From Planctomycetaceae bacterium (GTDB lineage Bacteria; Planctomycetota; Planctomycetia; Planctomycetales; Planctomycetaceae), in the NCBI GenBank assembly GCA_021732995.1, contig JAKFWA010000135.1, forward strand, positions 1-64,000: a DNA stretch of 64,000 bases, written 5' to 3'. The notes beneath the pieces are model-generated. The model saw only the letters and a list, made by a program, of their open reading frames with translations, had not been told where the DNA came from and searched no databases. This document shows positions 11,122 through 53,310 of the stretch, one piece after another; positions within the stretch are counted from its first letter, which is position 1, and each line of letters opens with the position of its first letter. Made by a program: the position numbers and the translations under genes.

Positions 11122-11910
11122 TCAAGCCGCCTTCCGCTCGTAGTGCTTCAGCAGACCGCCCAGCCGCTGCTGGCATGTGATGTCGCCGATCGGCACAACG
11201 TCCGGTGGCGGCGCGGCCGCCTTCAGCCCCTTCGGCTTCTTCTTCGGCGGTTCCGAAGAGGCCCGAATGAGCGGGGCGTTCTCCTTGGCCTGATGCGGCC
11301 GCTCTTCGTGGTAGTGGGCGACCATCTCCGAAACCAAGTGGTTCATGTGCTTTTCGCCGAACACCACGAAGTAATCGAGGCACTCCTGCTGCAGCTTCTG
11401 GATGAATCGCTCCACGAACGCAACCGTGTTCGGTGAACAGTGGGCTGCCTTCTGGACCTTCACTTGCCCGGCCTTCAGCACGTCATCGAACGACGCCGTG
11501 AATTTCGTGTCGCGGTCGTGCATCACCAGCGCCGTGTCGAGGCCGGTCTCTTTCGTATGCTCCAGAAATGCTTCGGCCTGTTGCTTGACCCACGCCTCAT
11601 TGGGGTGATACGAGGCCGGCGCGATGAACACCCGCCGCGTCTCCACATGCAGAAAGATCAGCAGATACAGATCGCGCAGCCCTTTGAGCGTCATCACCTT
11701 CTTCGAGTAGAAGTCGCATTGCCACAGCGTCGCCGCATGAATCTTCAGGAACTCGTCGCGCAGGCGCGAATGAAAACTCTCGGCGTAGCCATTCTCCAAA
11801 GGGCTGCCAGGTTGAACGTATAAAGTTTCAACGCTCACCAACTGCAACCCGCGTTGCACTGCACCTGATACGAACTCAGGACCGTTGTCGCTGCGAATGC
11901 ACTGCGGCAC
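11122..11910 (-). pseudogene. Chimeric transposase ORF: IS3 OrfB tail fused to a second DDE transposase
   Basis: The 262-codon frame is a fusion. Residues 1-55 are the end of an IS3-family OrfB integrase core (RSDNGPEF, then [17 protein letters not shown]). Residues 52-262 are the C-terminal half of another integrase-core transposase, beginning [16 protein letters not shown]. That half contains its own apparent DDE residues: Asp in CDFYSKK, Asp in HDRDTKF and Glu in VERFIQK. The same second transposase appears at 18880-19563, where [12 protein letters not shown] is preceded by its native N-terminal half. The two parents share the DNA word AGGAACTCGTC at the join (11748-11758), so the fusion probably arose by recombination at this short identity. 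The apparent start is only the point after an upstream nonsense codon. It is unlikely to be active. Confidence 0.8.
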
Positions 11911-12363
11911 ACCTCGCTCTGCGAACAGCTATGCCAGCGTATCAATGACATCCTCACTCGTGATGTGTCTGTCGACTTTCAGTGCCAGGCATTCCCGAGT
12001 GTATTCATCCACAATGCTCAACCATTTCAACGGGCTGCCATTAACCGTTCGATCGAATACGAAGTCCCAACACCATGTTGTGATCCTTGTGCTCCGCGGG
12101 ACGGTGCTGGCAACCGTTCTCGCTGATTCCCAGGCCACGCCGTTTAGCCTTCTGTCCTCGTCTTCCAACTCCTTCAGACGCCTGGCCTCCGCAGACTTCA
12201 TCCCTCCGTACTGATTCTTCCATCGCAGGTACGTCGCTTCGCTGACTTCCAAGGCCTGCAACACAGCCGCTTCATCCTGCCCCGCGTTCAGCATCGCGTC
12301 CGCATCCCGCAGCTTTCGCACAATCTGCTCCGGCGTATGCCGCTTGCGTCGTTGAGTCGTCAT
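11911..12363 (-). pseudogene. IS3-family OrfA-OrfB remnant, internally deleted
   Basis: From the ATG at 12363, residues 1 to about 70 are IS3 OrfA (HTPEQIVRKLRDAD, YLRWKNQYGGMKSAEARR). The frame then runs directly into late OrfB sequence (WCWDFVFDRTVNGSPLKW, SIVDEYTRECLALKVDR), so most of OrfA's end and the start of OrfB are deleted. A further frame disturbance is visible because GISENGCQHRPAEHKDH is in a neighbouring frame at about 12100. A TAG at 11929-11931 replaces the expected Glu before [16 protein letters not shown], which continues into the chimeric ORF at 11122-11910. It is oriented opposite to the IS3 remnant at 10515. Confidence 0.8.
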
Positions 12364-13345: not shown

Positions 13346-13370
13346 GCCACACCGCGAGGTTTTTCCGTAT
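13346..13370 (+). promoter_or_regulatory. Two-block motif before sigma gene (candidate ECF promoter)
   Basis: GCCACA, a 9-base spacer, then TTTTCCGTAT, ending 9 bases before the ATG at 13380. The same two blocks with the same spacer and the same distance to the start codon occur before the kinase gene at 14259. The layout resembles a -35/-10 pair of an ECF promoter with CCGTAT as the -10-like part. If so, the transcript would be almost leaderless. Confidence 0.5.
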
Positions 13371-13379
13371 AAGGAAGTT

Positions 13380-14126
13380 ATGAAGGCCCGCGACCACCGC
13401 CCCAATTCCAGCCCGATGAACGACTCGTTGTTCCACACGACGAGATGGTCCGTCGTGTTGGCCGCCCGCAGCGCAGGCTCTGAACAAGTCGCTCGTTCGC
13501 TGGAGTCGCTGTGCCAGCAGTATTGGCCGCCGCTCTACGCATTCGTCCGACATCGGGGGCATCGCGAACACGATGCTCAGGATTTAACCCAAGCGTTCTT
13601 CGCCCAGTTAATCGAGAAGGATTGGTTGAGCGCTGTGGATCCGGCCCGGGGGAAGTTTCGCGCGTTTTTGCTGATGGCACTCAAGCGGTTCCTTTCGAAA
13701 GACTACGAGCATACGAATGCACAGAAACGTGGCGGGGGACTGCGGATGATTCCCCTCGACGAGAACTTCGCCGGTCTTCTGGCCGATCAGAAGGCAGCAT
13801 CGCCGGAGGCTCTGTTCGACCGGCAATGGGCTCTGACGGTGCTGCAGATTTCGATGACGCGCTTGCAGAACGAATATGTCGATGCGAATCGGTGTGCGGA
13901 CTTCGAGCATCTCAAGGACTGCCTAACGGCGGAACGAGGCACGATCGACTATGTGACGCTGGCTTCACAACTGGAGGTTAGCCCCGTCTCCGCGCGCAGT
14001 AGCGTCCATAGGATGCGGGCCAGGTTTCGAGAGCTGTTCCGCGAGGAAGTTGCAGGGACTGTCGCCAATCCGCGGGATGTGGACGACGAAATGCGGGCCT
14101 TGTTTGCCGCTCTGAGTGCGGATTAG
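13380..14126 (+). CDS. ECF-type RNA polymerase sigma factor (kinase-associated planctomycete type)
   Basis: An alternative sigma factor of 248 residues that would direct RNA polymerase to specific promoters. The N-terminus HTTRWSVVLAAR is typical of the planctomycete ECF group found beside protein kinases. Region 2 covers about residues 40-110 (YWPPLYAFVRHRGHREHDAQ, then DLTQAFFAQL and FRAFLLMALKRFL), followed by a KRGGG linker. Region 4 lies near residues 190-225 (LASQLEVSPVSARSSVHRMR). There is no anti-sigma gene. The kinase starting 132 bp downstream presumably provides signalling control, as in other such pairs. The ATG at 13380 has AAGGAAG just upstream. It shares a 34-bp upstream motif arrangement with the kinase gene, which suggests autoregulation. 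Confidence 0.9.
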   Translation: MKARDHRPNSSPMNDSLFHTTRWSVVLAARSAGSEQVARSLESLCQQYWPPLYAFVRHRGHREHDAQDLTQAFFAQLIEKDWLSAVDPARGKFRAFLLMALKRFLSKDYEHTNAQKRGGGLRMIPLDENFAGLLADQKAASPEALFDRQWALTVLQISMTRLQNEYVDANRCADFEHLKDCLTAERGTIDYVTLASQLEVSPVSARSSVHRMRARFRELFREEVAGTVANPRDVDDEMRALFAALSAD

Positions 14127-14224
14127 ACGGAGCTCTCGTCTCTCGGAGTGGCTTGCTTCTGCGGCGAATCATTCAGGTTTGGGGCAGCGATGCTCGGAAT
14201 CTGCTCTCGTTGATCAAGTTCCTC

Positions 14225-14249
14225 GCCACAGAGGACGACTTTTCCGTAT
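14225..14249 (+). promoter_or_regulatory. Two-block motif before kinase gene (candidate ECF promoter)
   Basis: GCCACA at 14225-14230, nine unrelated bases, TTTTCCGTAT at 14240-14249, then nine bases to the ATG at 14259. This is an exact positional copy of the motif at 13346-13370 before the sigma gene, although the spacer bases differ. Conserved blocks with a diverged spacer argue for a binding site rather than a recent duplication. Confidence 0.5.
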
Positions 14250-14258
14250 GAGAACTGT

Positions 14259-17200
14259 ATGGACAATCGACCAACCACCATGTGCCCTCGGTGCGGGGCT
14301 TCAAGGATAAGCGGCCAGGTATTTGGTCTATGCCCCCGTTGTCTCGGGGCGCTCAACTTCACCAGTGACACATCGGCATCGGAAGGTGCTGCGGTCGGGT
14401 GGATGGAGTTTTCGCGGGAGGATTTGGAAGCGAGTTTCCCTCAACTGGAGATCCTGGAGCTGCTGGGCCGCGGCGGGATGGGGATCGTCTACAAGGCTCG
14501 CCAAAAAGAACTGGGGCGACTCGTTGCGCTCAAACTGCTACCTCCCGATCGCGTCCTGGACCCGCAGTTCGCAGACCGGTTTCGCCGCGAGGCACAGGCG
14601 CTCGCGTCCTTGGCGCATTCCAACATCGTCGCGATTTATGACTTCGGTCAGGCGAACGGACTGTTCTATCTACTCATGGAGTTCGTCGACGGAGTCAACC
14701 TGAGGCAGGCAATGAACGCCGGCCGATTCACTCCAGACCAGGCCCTCGCCATCGTTCCGCCGGTCTGCGAAGCACTGCAGTTTGCGCACGAGCACGGCGT
14801 CGTCCACCGGGACATCAAGCCCGAGAACCTACTGCTCGACAAGCGCGGGCAGGTCAAAATCGTGGACTTCGGGATCGCCAAGATGCTGGGGCAGGACGCA
14901 AATGTTGACGTAACCGAATCTCAGCCCGCCGGAACGCCGCAGTACATGGCGCCTGAGCAAAGGCGGCCTGGTCTGACCGATCACCGGGCCGATATCTACA
15001 GCCTGGGCGTCGTGCTGTACGAAATGCTGACCGGCGAATTGCCGACTGGCCCGCTGCAGCCGCCATCGCGTCGAATTCAGGTCGACGTGCACATCGACGA
15101 AATCGTACTTCGCGCGCTGGAAGCATCGCCTGAAATGCGCTTCGGGACTGCGGCGGAGTTCCGCAGTAGCATTGAGGCAGTGACGCGACGAAGGGCGGCG
15201 CCTTCGGCACAAGAGAGGATGTCTGGCTCCTTCTCGGCACTCGCGCTGTGGGGTGCGGCATGGTCGGCCCTGTGCCTGATCAGCCTCCCGTTTCTGGACA
15301 TGGCATGGATCGGCGGGTTAGGGAGCACAGTGCTGGGCTGGCTGGCGGTCTCGGAGATTCGGCGCTCTGAGGGCCAAGTGCGTGGACTAGGACTGGCCGT
15401 GTTTGATGGGGTCCTATTTCCGCTGCTGATCGTGAATTCCGTTATGGTCGCCGCCTGTGCGAAGTTCACCTTCCCACTTGAAAATCAACGATCGCTGGCA
15501 ATTGCCAGCTCCGACTGGCCGCTAATTGTCATCGGGCTTGGCCTGCTGACATTCCTGCTCGTCGTCCTGGTCGATTTCATCTTGGTGCGCGCTGTATGGA
15601 AATATCTCAACAGGTCCTGCAAGAACGTGGAAATGCCGGCGCGGCCCCGAAGTTGGCGCTCGGTCATGGGTGCCCTGCTTGTACTCGGCGGCGGTGCCGT
15701 CGTGCTCGGGGCGCCCGTCGTTAACGAATTCGTCGATGACTCAAGACTGACGACAACGGCTCGCAATCATCACCATGCACACAAGCGTGCAACACAGCGT
15801 TGGTCCGATCTTAAGGCTTCCGCGACCGAAGCCCTCATCGCTCTTGAAGCCGCTAAGACAACCGCGAGTGTGACCGAAATTGATCGTCTCACAAATGCGT
15901 CTCAGTTACTTCGTGACGAAGTTGCACAAGCGGAGTCTGCCGTCAATCAAGTTGCCTTGCAGAAGGAATCCAGTGAAAGAGAACGGCAGGCTCTATTCTA
16001 CCTGGTCGGCAGCGGTCTGATCGTGACAGGGTTGCTGGTATCTCTGTGGGACGCACGCCGTAACGACCGCTCGATCGCGGATCGAGACATAGGTTTACCC
16101 AAGACCGGCACCGCGACGTTGGTGACACCGAATGAACTCGCGAGCATTTGGAATCAGTGTTTCTGTTACCGCACTCGTGGATCGCTGACTCTGGACGAAA
16201 AGGGCCTGACGCATTCCTATCCCGGCGGCACAAAGACTATCCCGTTGCATGCCATTTGCGACGTCAGCATTGGGCAGCTTCCGCGGTTGATGAATCTTGC
16301 GGGCCTGCGTGTTCTGAGCATCGGATATGAAGACGATGGGCAGACTCGGCAAGTGCTCATATCACCAATCGAGGGGTGGCTTGAATACTCCCAAGAGGCT
16401 GTCTCGGTCTGGTACGAGGCCATCCGAAAGGCCGTTGTCGCCGCGACCGGGCGAAAGCCGACCACCACCCCCCAAGAGCAACTGGGAATTCCGCATAGCT
16501 CTCGATTGATCTCAACGACGGTTTTAGTCGCAGCCTCTCTGCTTGTTCTCGTTCTGTATTTCAAACTGTCTCAAGAATCGCTTCGGACTGCGACGCCGGC
16601 ACCTTCGATGAAGGTGACCAACAGAGGGTTTCCGGTCAGCAGCCATCTCAGTCGGAATCATCACTCCGTGCTGGTTGTGCAGGACGACTCCGCTTCGACT
16701 GTTGACTATGTCCTGTATTTCCCCGGAGACATTTCCACGTCATCCTCCGGCAGCAGAAATCTCGCTGACAAGACGTGGATTGATGAAGGAGTTGTCAAAC
16801 TCAGAAGCGGACGCAAATTTGCGTACTCACGAAAAGCAATTTCTCCGGACGAACTTCAGATCAACGGCGAGAATTTTGATTTGCGTCAGGGGCGTGTTCT
16901 GGTGCTTCACCTGGACGGCCATAGCGAACAGGTCCGTTCCTTCCCAAGCTTGAGTTTCGCTCGCGATCCGGAAGCAGTTGGTCGATTTGTTGCTGAAGAG
17001 GAAGGTCGTAAGAACGGCGTAATCGGCTGTAGCATTCCTCAAGTAAAGGTGCCCGATGGCACGCATGAATTATCACTCCATTTCCAACGTCAGTGGCAGA
17101 AAGCGCCGCGTCTTGGGATTGAGAGCAGTCTGCGCATAGTCGCCTCAGTATCTCCCGATCCGACGAAGCGGATGCCCAAGAATGGGCTGTGGACCACTCA

Positions 17201-17810
17201 GCAGAAGAGGCTCGTTCCCGTCGACGGACAGTTTACGGTCACTTTCGCACTGCCGGATGAAATCCCAATCGCGCGACTCCAGGAGGCCGCGGCAACCATA
17301 CGACGTCGCTATGAGAATAGCTCGGGCGATCGCCTCGGAGTCTGGTGCCAGACATTCGGTGAGGGCGAGCTGAACCAGTTGGCGGTGATCGCACATCCGG
17401 ATGGATGGGAATGCCACTTATTCATAAGAGCTTTGAGGCTAGACGAATTCAACAACCCCATCGAAATTTTAACGGCGCCTTCGGTGTCAGATGACAAGGA
17501 CGAACCTGCGACGCCAGCCGACCCCGTGGATGCCATTTCTGACCTCGCGATGAAGACTTACGATTTCAGTTTCGCATTTGTCGGCGTCGGCAGAGAAGCG
17601 CGTCTGCGTGACGAGGTCCGTCTGGCGATCGAACAATTTGTCCAGAAGGTCGATGCAGAAACCGGCCGGACCCCAGACGCTCGTATGGACGCGGAAACCC
17701 GATTGCTCACGCTCACCGGGCCCGCTGACCAACATCGTGTGATCTCGAAAATGGTCGTGACCTTGAAAGAGAAGTTGGCCCAGGACGCGCTCTCGGAATC
17801 GAAGCCATGA
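14259..17810 (+). CDS. Zinc-ribbon Ser/Thr kinase with multiple membrane segments and PH-like domain
   Basis: A predicted signalling kinase of 1183 residues. It begins with a zinc ribbon (CPRC at 9-12 and CPRC at 25-28). The kinase domain follows at about 63-310: LLGRGGMGIVYKA, catalytic Lys92, HRDIKPEN from 183, DFG at 203-205 and APE at 231-233. About five hydrophobic segments lie between residues 325 and 487, then a probable coiled coil (about 505-575), another membrane segment (about 577-597) and a PH-like stretch (about 618-735, LTLDEKGLTHSY...). One more membrane segment lies near 750-775. The remaining 400 residues match nothing I recognise. It lies downstream of the ECF sigma gene on the same strand and carries its own copy of the shared upstream motif. 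The ribosome-binding site is weak, consistent with a nearly leaderless start. Confidence 0.88.
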   Translation: MDNRPTTMCPRCGASRISGQVFGLCPRCLGALNFTSDTSASEGAAVGWMEFSREDLEASFPQLEILELLGRGGMGIVYKARQKELGRLVALKLLPPDRVLDPQFADRFRREAQALASLAHSNIVAIYDFGQANGLFYLLMEFVDGVNLRQAMNAGRFTPDQALAIVPPVCEALQFAHEHGVVHRDIKPENLLLDKRGQVKIVDFGIAKMLGQDANVDVTESQPAGTPQYMAPEQRRPGLTDHRADIYSLGVVLYEMLTGELPTGPLQPPSRRIQVDVHIDEIVLRALEASPEMRFGTAAEFRSSIEAVTRRRAAPSAQERMSGSFSALALWGAAWSALCLISLPFLDMAWIGGLGSTVLGWLAVSEIRRSEGQVRGLGLAVFDGVLFPLLIVNSVMVAACAKFTFPLENQRSLAIASSDWPLIVIGLGLLTFLLVVLVDFILVRAVWKYLNRSCKNVEMPARPRSWRSVMGALLVLGGGAVVLGAPVVNEFVDDSRLTTTARNHHHAHKRATQRWSDLKASATEALIALEAAKTTASVTEIDRLTNASQLLRDEVAQAESAVNQVALQKESSERERQALFYLVGSGLIVTGLLVSLWDARRNDRSIADRDIGLPKTGTATLVTPNELASIWNQCFCYRTRGSLTLDEKGLTHSYPGGTKTIPLHAICDVSIGQLPRLMNLAGLRVLSIGYEDDGQTRQVLISPIEGWLEYSQEAVSVWYEAIRKAVVAATGRKPTTTPQEQLGIPHSSRLISTTVLVAASLLVLVLYFKLSQESLRTATPAPSMKVTNRGFPVSSHLSRNHHSVLVVQDDSASTVDYVLYFPGDISTSSSGSRNLADKTWIDEGVVKLRSGRKFAYSRKAISPDELQINGENFDLRQGRVLVLHLDGHSEQVRSFPSLSFARDPEAVGRFVAEEEGRKNGVIGCSIPQVKVPDGTHELSLHFQRQWQKAPRLGIESSLRIVASVSPDPTKRMPKNGLWTTQQKRLVPVDGQFTVTFALPDEIPIARLQEAAATIRRRYENSSGDRLGVWCQTFGEGELNQLAVIAHPDGWECHLFIRALRLDEFNNPIEILTAPSVSDDKDEPATPADPVDAISDLAMKTYDFSFAFVGVGREARLRDEVRLAIEQFVQKVDAETGRTPDARMDAETRLLTLTGPADQHRVISKMVVTLKEKLAQDALSESKP

Positions 17811-18879: not shown

Positions 18880-19563
18880 TCACATCCTACTGTCACGCTT
18901 GGCGGCATGAACTCTGCCGATGCGACGCCGCTCGTTCGGGTGATACGCGGCCGGCGCGATGAACACCCGCCGCGTCTCCACATGCAGAAAGATCAGCAGA
19001 TACAGATCGCGCAGCCCTTTGAGCGTCATCACCTTCTTCGAGTAGAAGTCGCATTGCCACAGCGTGGCCGCATGAATCTTCAGGAACTCGTCCCAAGTGC
19101 CTGCCCCGCGCTTCGGTCCGGGATCCAGTCCGTTCTCCTTCAGGATGTTCTTTACGGTGTTCCGCGACACCGCCTTGATCCCGACCTTGCGGAGTTCGCC
19201 CAGGATGCGGGTGTAGCCCCAGTCGTTCTCACGGGCCAGCTTGAGGATCAACTCGCGGATCTGCTCCTGCGTCCGTGGGCGACCTTTCTTCACGGGTTTC
19301 TTCTTGGCCTTCTGCTGCGAGTCACGAATCCACCGCCGCAGGGTGTCGGGATGCACAATCGTGACCAGCTCGCTCAGCGCCTTTCCCAGCTTCGCTCCGA
19401 ACTTCACCAACCGGTTCTGTTCCTTCGGCGTCACCGGCACTCGCTTGGGAAGTTTGCTGCGGAGGATTTCGTTCTCGATCTTCAGGTATCGGACGTGCCG
19501 GGCCAACTCCAACTGCGCCGCGCCGGCGATCAACAGCAGCGAACGTTGGTAGAGGTTCTTCAT
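18880..19563 (-). pseudogene. Integrase-core transposase, C-terminally truncated
   Basis: Residues 1 to about 208 are the N-terminal part of a DDE (rve) transposase. It has an HTH-like region ([13 protein letters not shown]), a second HTH segment ([18 protein letters not shown]) and the start of the catalytic core with the first Asp ([20 protein letters not shown]). Homology to the copy at 11122 stops after YHPNE near 18936, and unrelated sequence supplies the last residues and stop. The missing C-terminal half is preserved at 11122-11757, so the two remnants together give a nearly complete protein of roughly 370 residues. The IS family is uncertain (IS481/IS3-like integrase core). It is minus-strand, facing the gene at 18020. 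Confidence 0.8.
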
Positions 19564-19909
19564 CGCGGTATAACTTGGAAGGCGTTGTCAGCACGGGAGA
19601 TGGCTTCCTTTTTGCACCCCGGAATGGGCCGTGGTAAAGCCGGGTTTCGCCCCCGGTTCCGGACCGCGGTCAAGACGCCCCGGTCATGCAGATCGTATCG
19701 GGCTGGCACGCGGTGCCCGAACGGATGACGCGCTCTCTTTCCCGCGTCGTGTTCTCGTTGAAGGCAGGCGGACCGGCCTCAATCTTTCCGTAGAGCGTTG
19801 AATCGCGCTTCCCCCCGAATCAGACGGAAATCGCTAAGTCGCTGCGCTTCAACAACTTTTGGCGGCGGCAAAACAGAGAATGGTTCGGAAAAGGGTTTTG
19901 CACGGGGAG
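19211..19909 (-). mobile_element. IS fragment, copy 1 of a 699-bp direct repeat
   Basis: This segment contains the transposase N-terminal region plus a 346-bp upstream non-coding end. It matches 52612-53310 base for base in length, with only scattered substitutions. Both copies end at the word CACGGGGAG, after which the flanks are unrelated (a terminase fragment here, a hairpin and the third giant gene there). That shared limit probably marks one IS end, though no terminal inverted repeat was confirmed. Confidence 0.75.
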
Positions 19910-52607: not shown

Positions 52608-52964
52608 CTATGTGTAGCCCCAGTCATTCTCACGGGCCAGTTTGAGGATCAACTCGCGGATCTGCTCCTGCGTCCGCGGGCGGCCCTTCTTCACGGGCTT
52701 CTTCCTGCCCGTTTGTTGCGAGTCACGAATCCAGCGCCGCAGGGTGTCGGGATGCACAATCGTCACCAGCTCGCTCAGCGCCTTTCCCAGCTTCGCTCCG
52801 AACTTCACCAACCGGTTCTGTTCCTTCGGCGTCACCGGCACCCGCTTGGGAAGTTTGCTGCGGAGGATTTCGTTCTCGATCTTCAGGTAACGGACGTGCC
52901 GGGGCAGCTCCAACTGCGTCGCGCCGGCGATCAACAGCAGCAAACGTTGGTAGAGGTTCTTCAT
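52608..52964 (-). pseudogene. Integrase-core transposase N-terminal fragment, copy 2
   Basis: This is the same N-terminus as the transposase at 19563 (MKNLYQR..., [30 protein letters not shown]), ending after NDWGYT at a TAG created by the junction with the serine recombinase remnant. Only 118 residues remain, with the two helix-turn-helix regions and none of the catalytic core. It differs from copy 1 by a few substitutions (e.g. QTGRKKP versus QKAKKKP). Confidence 0.8.
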
Positions 52965-53310
52965 CGCGGTATAACTTGGAAGGCGTTGTCAGCACGGGAG
53001 ATGGCTTCCTTTTTGCACCCCGCAATGGGCCGTGGTAAAGCCGGGTTTCGCCCCCGGCTCCGGTCTGCGGTCAAGACGCCCCGGTCATGCAGATCGTATC
53101 GGGCTGGCACGCGGTGCCCGAACGGATGACGCGCTCTCTTTGCCGCGTTGCGCTCTCGTTGAAGGCGGGCGGACCAGCCTCAATCTTTCCGTAGAGCGTT
53201 GAATCGCGCTTCCCCCCGAATCAAACGGAAATCGCCAAGTCGCTGCGCTTCAACAACTTTTGGCGGCGGCAAAACAGAGAATGGTTCGGAAAAGGGTTTT
53301 GCACGGGGAG
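52612..53310 (-). mobile_element. IS fragment, copy 2 of a 699-bp direct repeat
   Basis: The region from GTGTAGCCCC to CACGGGGAG aligns without gaps to 19211-19909 in the same orientation. The left limit is the fusion with the serine recombinase remnant. The right limit coincides with the right limit of copy 1, supporting a true IS end at this side. Confidence 0.75.

Follow-up and report, generated by a model that had tools for sequence, protein, structure and literature searches.

About 55% of extracytoplasmic function (ECF) sigma factors are predicted to be autoregulated, and the code of Todor et al. (2020, PNAS), in its outline, predicts promoter bases from the sigma2 and sigma4 residues of autoregulated ECFs (PMC8103513). 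ECF groups 43, 59, 61, 62, 217 and 283, several of them from planctomycetes, are encoded beside a Ser/Thr protein kinase (STPK) gene (PMC8999054). In ECF43 (EcfP, EcfK), the DAED motif of sigma2.2 has been lost, and phosphorylation supplies the charge needed for core polymerase binding (PMC8999054). ECF autoregulation is already known, as are kinase-linked ECFs and codes based on covariation (PMC8103513, PMC8999054). Here we analyzed a 64,000-nt stretch of Planctomycetaceae bacterium DNA (assembly GCA_021732995.1, contig JAKFWA010000135.1, positions 1 to 64,000; hereafter the window, in a genome of 9.39 Mb), in which the same two-block motif precedes a gene for an ECF-type sigma factor (13380) and the adjacent gene for a Ser/Thr kinase (14259). 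Because three independent lines agree, namely fixed-spacing footprints in relatives, covariation of promoter bases with DNA-contact residues of the sigma factor, and a kinase gene that keeps the element 23 kb from its presumed sigma gene, both motifs are very probably promoters recognized by RNA polymerase with the sigma factor encoded at 13380. This supports the preliminary description of this DNA, which had proposed the motif as a candidate binding site of that sigma factor.

Like the STPK-linked ECF groups, the window encodes a sigma factor of two domains next to a Hanks-type kinase, with no recognized anti-sigma gene between the two genes; unlike those groups, its sigma and kinase genes each have a matched promoter. 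From its sequence, the system is predicted to be a positively autoregulated STPK-linked ECF module. Unlike in ECF43, with its lost acidic motif, DAQD is kept at residues 65–68, and therefore any phosphorylation control would act differently. The module resembles Escherichia coli sigmaE, Bacillus subtilis SigW and Mycobacterium tuberculosis sigmaH in that a sigma4 helix would read the -35 element and sigma2 a CGT-type -10 element, the spacing is rigid and the sigma factor is predicted to act on its own gene. It differs from these three in its -35 element GCCACA (GTAAC, GTCAC or GAAAC in relatives), in its partner, which is a kinase with its own promoter and not an anti-sigma factor, and in a start codon ~9 nt from the -10 element. 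Compared with the code of Todor et al. as outlined, the residue–base relations described below likewise predict promoter bases from sigma2 and sigma4 residues, but they are drawn from a single family in which two target promoters are linked, and they include homologs with a site at the kinase gene and none at the sigma gene.

Two exact copies of the motif in the window

GCCACA-N9-TTTTCCGTAT-N9-ATG occurred in two exact copies in the window, 879 bp apart, one ahead of each gene.

13380–14126, forward strand: gene for the ECF-type sigma factor, 248 aa; sigma2 at residues ~20–118, sigma4 at ~142–225, recognition helix from 202, short C-terminal helix at 231–246
14259–17810, forward strand: gene for the Ser/Thr protein kinase, 1183 aa; N-terminal CPxC zinc-ribbon-like segment, kinase domain at residues 64–264, long C-terminal part
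13346–13380, forward strand: motif copy 1, exact repeat; GCCACA 13346–13351, N9, TTTTCCGTAT 13361–13370, N9, ATG 13380
14225–14259, forward strand: motif copy 2, exact repeat; GCCACA 14225–14230, N9, TTTTCCGTAT 14240–14249, N9, ATG 14259

The blocks, their spacings and their coordinates proved exactly as first described, and so did the divergence of the intervening bases: the two copies share only 2 of 9 bases in the spacers and 4 of 9 in the tails before the ATG. At up to three mismatches the motif was found at two places in the window, both exact, where 0.26 were expected from window shuffles. A second sigma/kinase pair in the window (20468/21148), put forward earlier as an internal control, indeed lacked the motif; its sigma factor (20468) belongs to a different ECF family (PF07638/TIGR02999).

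In the genome scan that had been proposed, exact matches in the whole genome were confined to the copies before the sigma and kinase genes, while at up to three mismatches there were 41 matches against 39 for a reversed control, and thus no enrichment beyond the two copies. Those near matches that were checked individually lay within coding sequence or had no nearby gene start. The module looks local, with no other convincing site found in the genome by this mismatch-count scan.

Fixed-spacing footprints in relatives

A motif matrix was learned by expectation-maximization (EM) from the upstream regions of 146 homologous sigma genes. With this matrix, 33 of the 146 regions scored at least 14 at a gap of 9, compared with 0–2 regions at each of the other gaps (4–8 and 10–14), and 20 dinucleotide shuffles gave no site of at least 14. 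The claim of a rigid gap is based on this fixed-matrix test and not on EM likelihoods, which for planctomycete kinase upstream regions were alike for gaps 7–10 (222–225), since the second block is wide enough to take up shifts. The comparison of orthologous sigma/kinase pairs suggested in the preliminary description was thus favorable, with copies at the kinase genes as well. Individual orthologs kept the layout with the same or other bases: GCCACA-N9-GTTTGCTTAT in L128, GCCACA-N9-TTTTGCTTAT in L135 and L137, GAAACA-N9-TTTTGCTTAAG in L031–L033, and GTAACA-N9-GTTTCCTGAA in L142 and L143 (L numbers denote homologous loci).

Scanning the whole loci (621 kb) gave strong sites at 30 places ahead of sigma genes and at 24 other places, the latter mostly directly before the linked kinase gene. 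Among the 15 loci with both copies, the sigma and kinase copies agreed at 186 of 240 letters, compared with 159 ± 5 when permuted between loci (p = 1e-4). About 30 of 38 planctomycete loci carried the element, as tGTMACn-N9-nWTTCCKTYA, before the kinase gene only. Exact searches were similarly specific: in ten verrucomicrobial genomes all six matches to GTAACA-N11-TTCCTGAA preceded a sigma or kinase gene of this type, and all four matches to the GCCACA/CTTAT form were at sigma loci. In one locus (L217, G130:C1:981136), the exact promoter and the 9-nt ATG distance were found before a kinase gene 23 kb from the presumed sigma gene; therefore the element tracks the kinase gene and not merely the locus.

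Two further observations concern other genes and other promoters. In Verrucomicrobiaceae/Akkermansia-type metagenome-assembled genomes, a third site, GCCACA-N9-nGATCCTTAAGTAATG, was present before genes downstream of the kinase gene. Its positions from the conserved TRWS codons were +2093 in L031, +2038 and +3484 in L032, and +2038 in L033, and the genes that follow are possible further targets in these loci. Separately, TANAAT occurred 6–7 nt before the sigma ATG in 10 of 43 planctomycete homologs (L048–L096) versus 1 of 83 from Verrucomicrobiota, which suggests that those planctomycete sigma genes are read from a nearly leaderless housekeeping-type promoter, with the ECF site at the kinase gene only.

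Covariation of promoter bases with sigma residues

Sites were called at 81 loci with a matrix blind to -35 bases 2 and 3, and every sigma column was compared with each promoter base by mutual information. The highest-ranking columns lay in DNA-reading helices. In sigma4, residues 204 and 207 were linked to -35 base 2, residue 207 also to base 3 and residue 206 to base 6; in sigma2, residue 107 was linked to the second -10 base. At residue 207, V went with GTA (46 of 47), Q with GTC (8 of 10), M with GTT (5 of 5), and S with GCC or GAA (10 of 11). A at residue 204 was always paired with T (66/66). At residue 206, R accompanied A or G (51/52) and K one of the non-A bases (27/28); at residue 107, K was paired with G (18/18), N with T (48/53), and S or D with C (6/7).

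Shared ancestry was addressed on a tree built without the tested columns, with a count of coincident changes that ignores branch support. For 11 of the 14 changes at the second -10 base, residue 107 changed on the same branch, against 2.8 expected (p = 2e-4; highest rank among 218 columns), and residues 206 and 204 likewise ranked first for their bases. An independent-pairs test on well-supported branches only had too few pairs for significance. Residues 103 and 110, considered as -10 readers for their high mutual information, were unsupported on the tree. When homologs of at least 60% identity were removed, the four residues predicted 278 of 324 bases, compared with 214 for the nearest remaining homolog and 213 for the majority base; with homologs of at least 50% identity removed, the corresponding numbers were 266, 175 and 213.

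The window residues S204, R206, S207 and K107 fit GCCACA/CGTAT. A paralog in the same genome with A204, R206, Q207 and N107 has GTCACA-N9-GCTTGCTTTA before its kinase gene, that is, GTCACA/CTTTA as the code predicts. Judging from these sequences, two insulated sigma/promoter pairs appear to coexist in one genome.

The same residues can be placed on solved ECF factors, with SigW and sigmaH residue numbers matched through the aligned M. tuberculosis SigE. Residues 206, 207 and 204 correspond to SigW K170, T171 and T168, which contact the corresponding part of the -35 element (PMC6713349), and residue 107 corresponds to N92 of M. tuberculosis sigmaH, which contacts the -11 pair (PMC6411747).

Anatomy of the probable promoters and predicted transcription starts

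13346–13351, forward strand: sigma promoter -35 element GCCACA, exact repeat; same place in orthologs L128, L135, L137 and L139; covarying positions 2, 3 and 6
13361–13370, forward strand: sigma promoter T-tract (13361–13364) and -10 element CCGTAT, core CGTAT 13366–13370; G13367 covaries with sigma residue 107 (K)
14225–14230, forward strand: kinase promoter -35 element GCCACA, exact repeat; equivalents before the kinase genes of L127, L128, L129, L135, L137, L139 and others
14240–14249, forward strand: kinase promoter T-tract and -10 element CCGTAT; exactly 9 nt to the kinase ATG, as in ~15 verrucomicrobial loci

The ten-base second block had been regarded as -10-like as a whole. That assignment holds for its right half, CGTAT; its TTTT is a T-tract within the spacer, and the gap from the -35 element to CGTAT is 14 bases. 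A CGT-type -10 element at a rigid distance from the -35 element is as expected of an ECF promoter. With the G of CGTAT set as -11, following sigmaH numbering (PMC6411747), the transcription start is predicted two bases ahead of each ATG (13378 and 14257); given purine preference, the likely starts would be 13377, 13380 and 14257.

The distance from the element to the in-frame kinase ATG was exactly 9 nt in ~15 verrucomicrobial loci and in the window, and in those ~15 loci GGT or GGC usually stood before the ATG. Nearly leaderless mRNAs are likely here because of this geometry. The earlier expectation of such mRNAs is therefore supported by the arrangement conserved in Verrucomicrobiota but does not extend to most planctomycete homologs, whose leaders before the kinase gene are ~30–50 nt long; with one verrucomicrobial subgroup included, the range is ~26–50 nt. 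In loci with longer leaders (L151, L155, L168, L170, L171, L173, L174, L176, L180, L182 and L184, and several planctomycete loci), a GGAAGGAGTG-like block directly followed the kinase-side motif, 26–47 nt ahead of the kinase ATG; it may belong to the promoter, act as a signal in the leader or serve as ribosome site for a tiny open reading frame.

The sigma factor and kinase proteins

The sigma factor scored 28.5 bits with Pfam Sigma70_r2 (cut-off 24), 29.9 bits with the NCBIfam sigma70-ECF model (below its cut-off of 42.9) and 20.8 bits with TIGR02989, the Rhodopirellula/Verrucomicrobium sigma family (124.55), to which it would thus not be assigned. It is classed from these profiles as a divergent ECF-type sigma factor because it passed the Pfam cut-off but fell below the curated NCBIfam ECF cut-offs. 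An AlphaFold2 model built with 48 homologs reached a predicted local distance difference test score (pLDDT) of 84, and an earlier single-sequence model (pLDDT 44) was dropped. The modelled sigma2 superposed on E. coli sigmaE with a -10 strand (4lup; Z 10.2, root-mean-square deviation (rmsd) 2.3, 91 aligned residues), and the modelled sigma4-like domain on sigmaE region 4 on -35 DNA (2h27; Z 6.3, rmsd 3.4, 71 aligned residues). By Pfam and the model, the protein has the group 4 (ECF) architecture of sigma2 and sigma4 only, joined by a short linker. Its sigma2.2 reads HDAQDLTQ, in which A66 and D68 of the DAQD motif were nearly invariant among the 48 homologs.

The product of 14259 is a Hanks-type kinase (Pfam Pkinase, 5.8e-52). 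An orthologous kinase gene followed the sigma gene in most homologous loci, as in the STPK-linked ECF groups.

Weighing the alternatives

Several observations weigh against recognition of the motifs by the sigma factor at 13380. GTATAAG ahead of 13380 can also be read as a housekeeping -10 element. The window has GCCAC in place of the AAC that is a hallmark of the ECF -35 element, as described for the first small set of studied ECFs (PMC8103513); -35 forms among sigma relatives of the same family are GTAAC, GAAAC, GTCAC and GCCAC. On the tree, the pairing of residue 207 with -35 base 3 was borderline (p = 0.05). No site was called at either gene in 65 of the 146 homologous loci, and among 40 additional homologs at greater distance a site could be called in only 3, the other 37 having no recognizable copy. 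With so few sites the prospective residue–base test on these 40 homologs was replaced by the leave-relatives-out test given above, and the residue–base code holds for the closer half of the sigma family.

The alternative that survives best, although very unlikely, is that both sites are housekeeping (sigmaA-type) promoters that are alike by chance, reading CTGCCA-N18-TATAAG at the sigma gene and TCGCCA-N18-TATGAG at the kinase gene. TTGACA is matched at four of six positions or slightly fewer in both, TATAAG agrees with TATAAT at five of six, and 10 of 43 planctomycete homologs have TANAAT at 6–7 nt before the sigma ATG. However, the orthologs keep GNNACA and CKKAW across a rigid gap rather than TTGACA/TATAAT, no further exact copy of the block occurs in the genome, and the bases track the DNA-contact residues of the adjacent sigma factor, which would be unexpected of a housekeeping promoter.

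Control of both genes by a separate transcription factor with the motif as its operator, the sigma factor acting elsewhere, is highly improbable: two half-blocks ~15 bases apart could be taken for an operator, but they form neither an inverted nor a direct repeat, they show the ECF layout (-35 element, T-tract, CGT-type -10 element) at a fixed distance from the start codon, and sigma residues 204, 206, 207 and 107 track their bases. That the pair arose by recent local duplication, or by a coincidence without function, has a negligible probability, since, even with only two copies 879 bp apart, the blocks are identical while spacers and flanks have diverged, and the footprints contradict it with the same arrangement in other phyla and with other bases.

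A proposed autoregulated sigma/kinase circuit

Under recognition by the 13380 sigma factor, sigma region 4 would read the -35 element GCCACA and sigma region 2 the -10 element CGTAT. The active sigma factor would transcribe its own gene and, separately, the adjacent Ser/Thr kinase gene, giving a positive feedback loop on both; we strongly infer transcription of both genes from the matched promoter-like elements, which are kept with both genes and covary with the sigma factor. For autoregulation, both the motif before the sigma gene and the residue–base covariation were observed. Transcription would start ~0–3 bases before each ATG, as the conserved geometry predicts, and yield nearly leaderless mRNAs. 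Synteny and the literature suggest that the sigma factor is in turn probably under the control of the kinase.

A more far-reaching form of this circuit is closed on two targets. The sigma factor's only direct promoters would be its own and that of the kinase gene, with leaderless mRNAs and a self-amplifying switch whose output is phosphorylation by the kinase and not a regulon, and the module would spread as a unit from phylum to phylum, since its matched promoters come with it. We regard this form as tentative and, on balance, rather doubtful.

Ancestry and genomic surroundings

The closest homologs of the sigma factor were from Verrucomicrobiota, with up to 60% identity, and planctomycete homologs, including the paralog in the same genome, had only 44–47% identity. 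A tree of 146 homologs placed the window sigma factor inside a verrucomicrobial group of 16 (Shimodaira–Hasegawa-like approximate likelihood ratio test, 95), although the sigma trees were quick searches with limited support. Because the sigma factor nests in this group and its planctomycete homologs are less similar, the phylogeny suggests that the module was horizontally acquired. In a composition test for recent transfer, the GC content of the module and of its third codon positions did not stand out, so only the tree points to transfer.

Broken insertion-sequence genes (rve, HTH_Tnp_1, HTH_32) flank the sigma/kinase module at window positions 11122–12363 and 18880–19563, and the two remnants share a 162-bp stretch of 97.5% identity. 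Also in the window, 19211–19909 is repeated at 52612–53310 (95.6%), and 23336–50992 is a single open frame of 9218 codons for a very large protein with repeats that are glycine/aspartate-rich and Ig-like-looking.

Significance

Our literature search found no published promoter motif for this sigma group, nor a matched sigma/kinase promoter pair with a fixed, near-leaderless geometry; the 2021 ECF classification lay outside the search and may already list the motif. The motif is almost certainly the switch that the sigma factor recognizes ahead of its own gene and of the partner kinase gene. It is a variation on a type known from other sigma factors, is conserved across several bacterial phyla, lies nearly on top of both start codons and varies together with the sigma protein.

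Planctomycetes and their relatives have many STPK-linked ECF factors, whose promoters and wiring are largely unstudied. For this family, the target promoter can be read from the sequence, the transcription start is predicted to within a few bases, and the base-reading sigma residues are named. The wiring of the sigma factor onto itself and the kinase, swaps of specificity and leaderless translation thereby become directly testable. Residue 107 varies naturally between K, N and S/D, residue 207 between V, Q, M and S, and residue 206 between R and K; these swaps provide matched sigma/promoter sets, two of which are in this genome.

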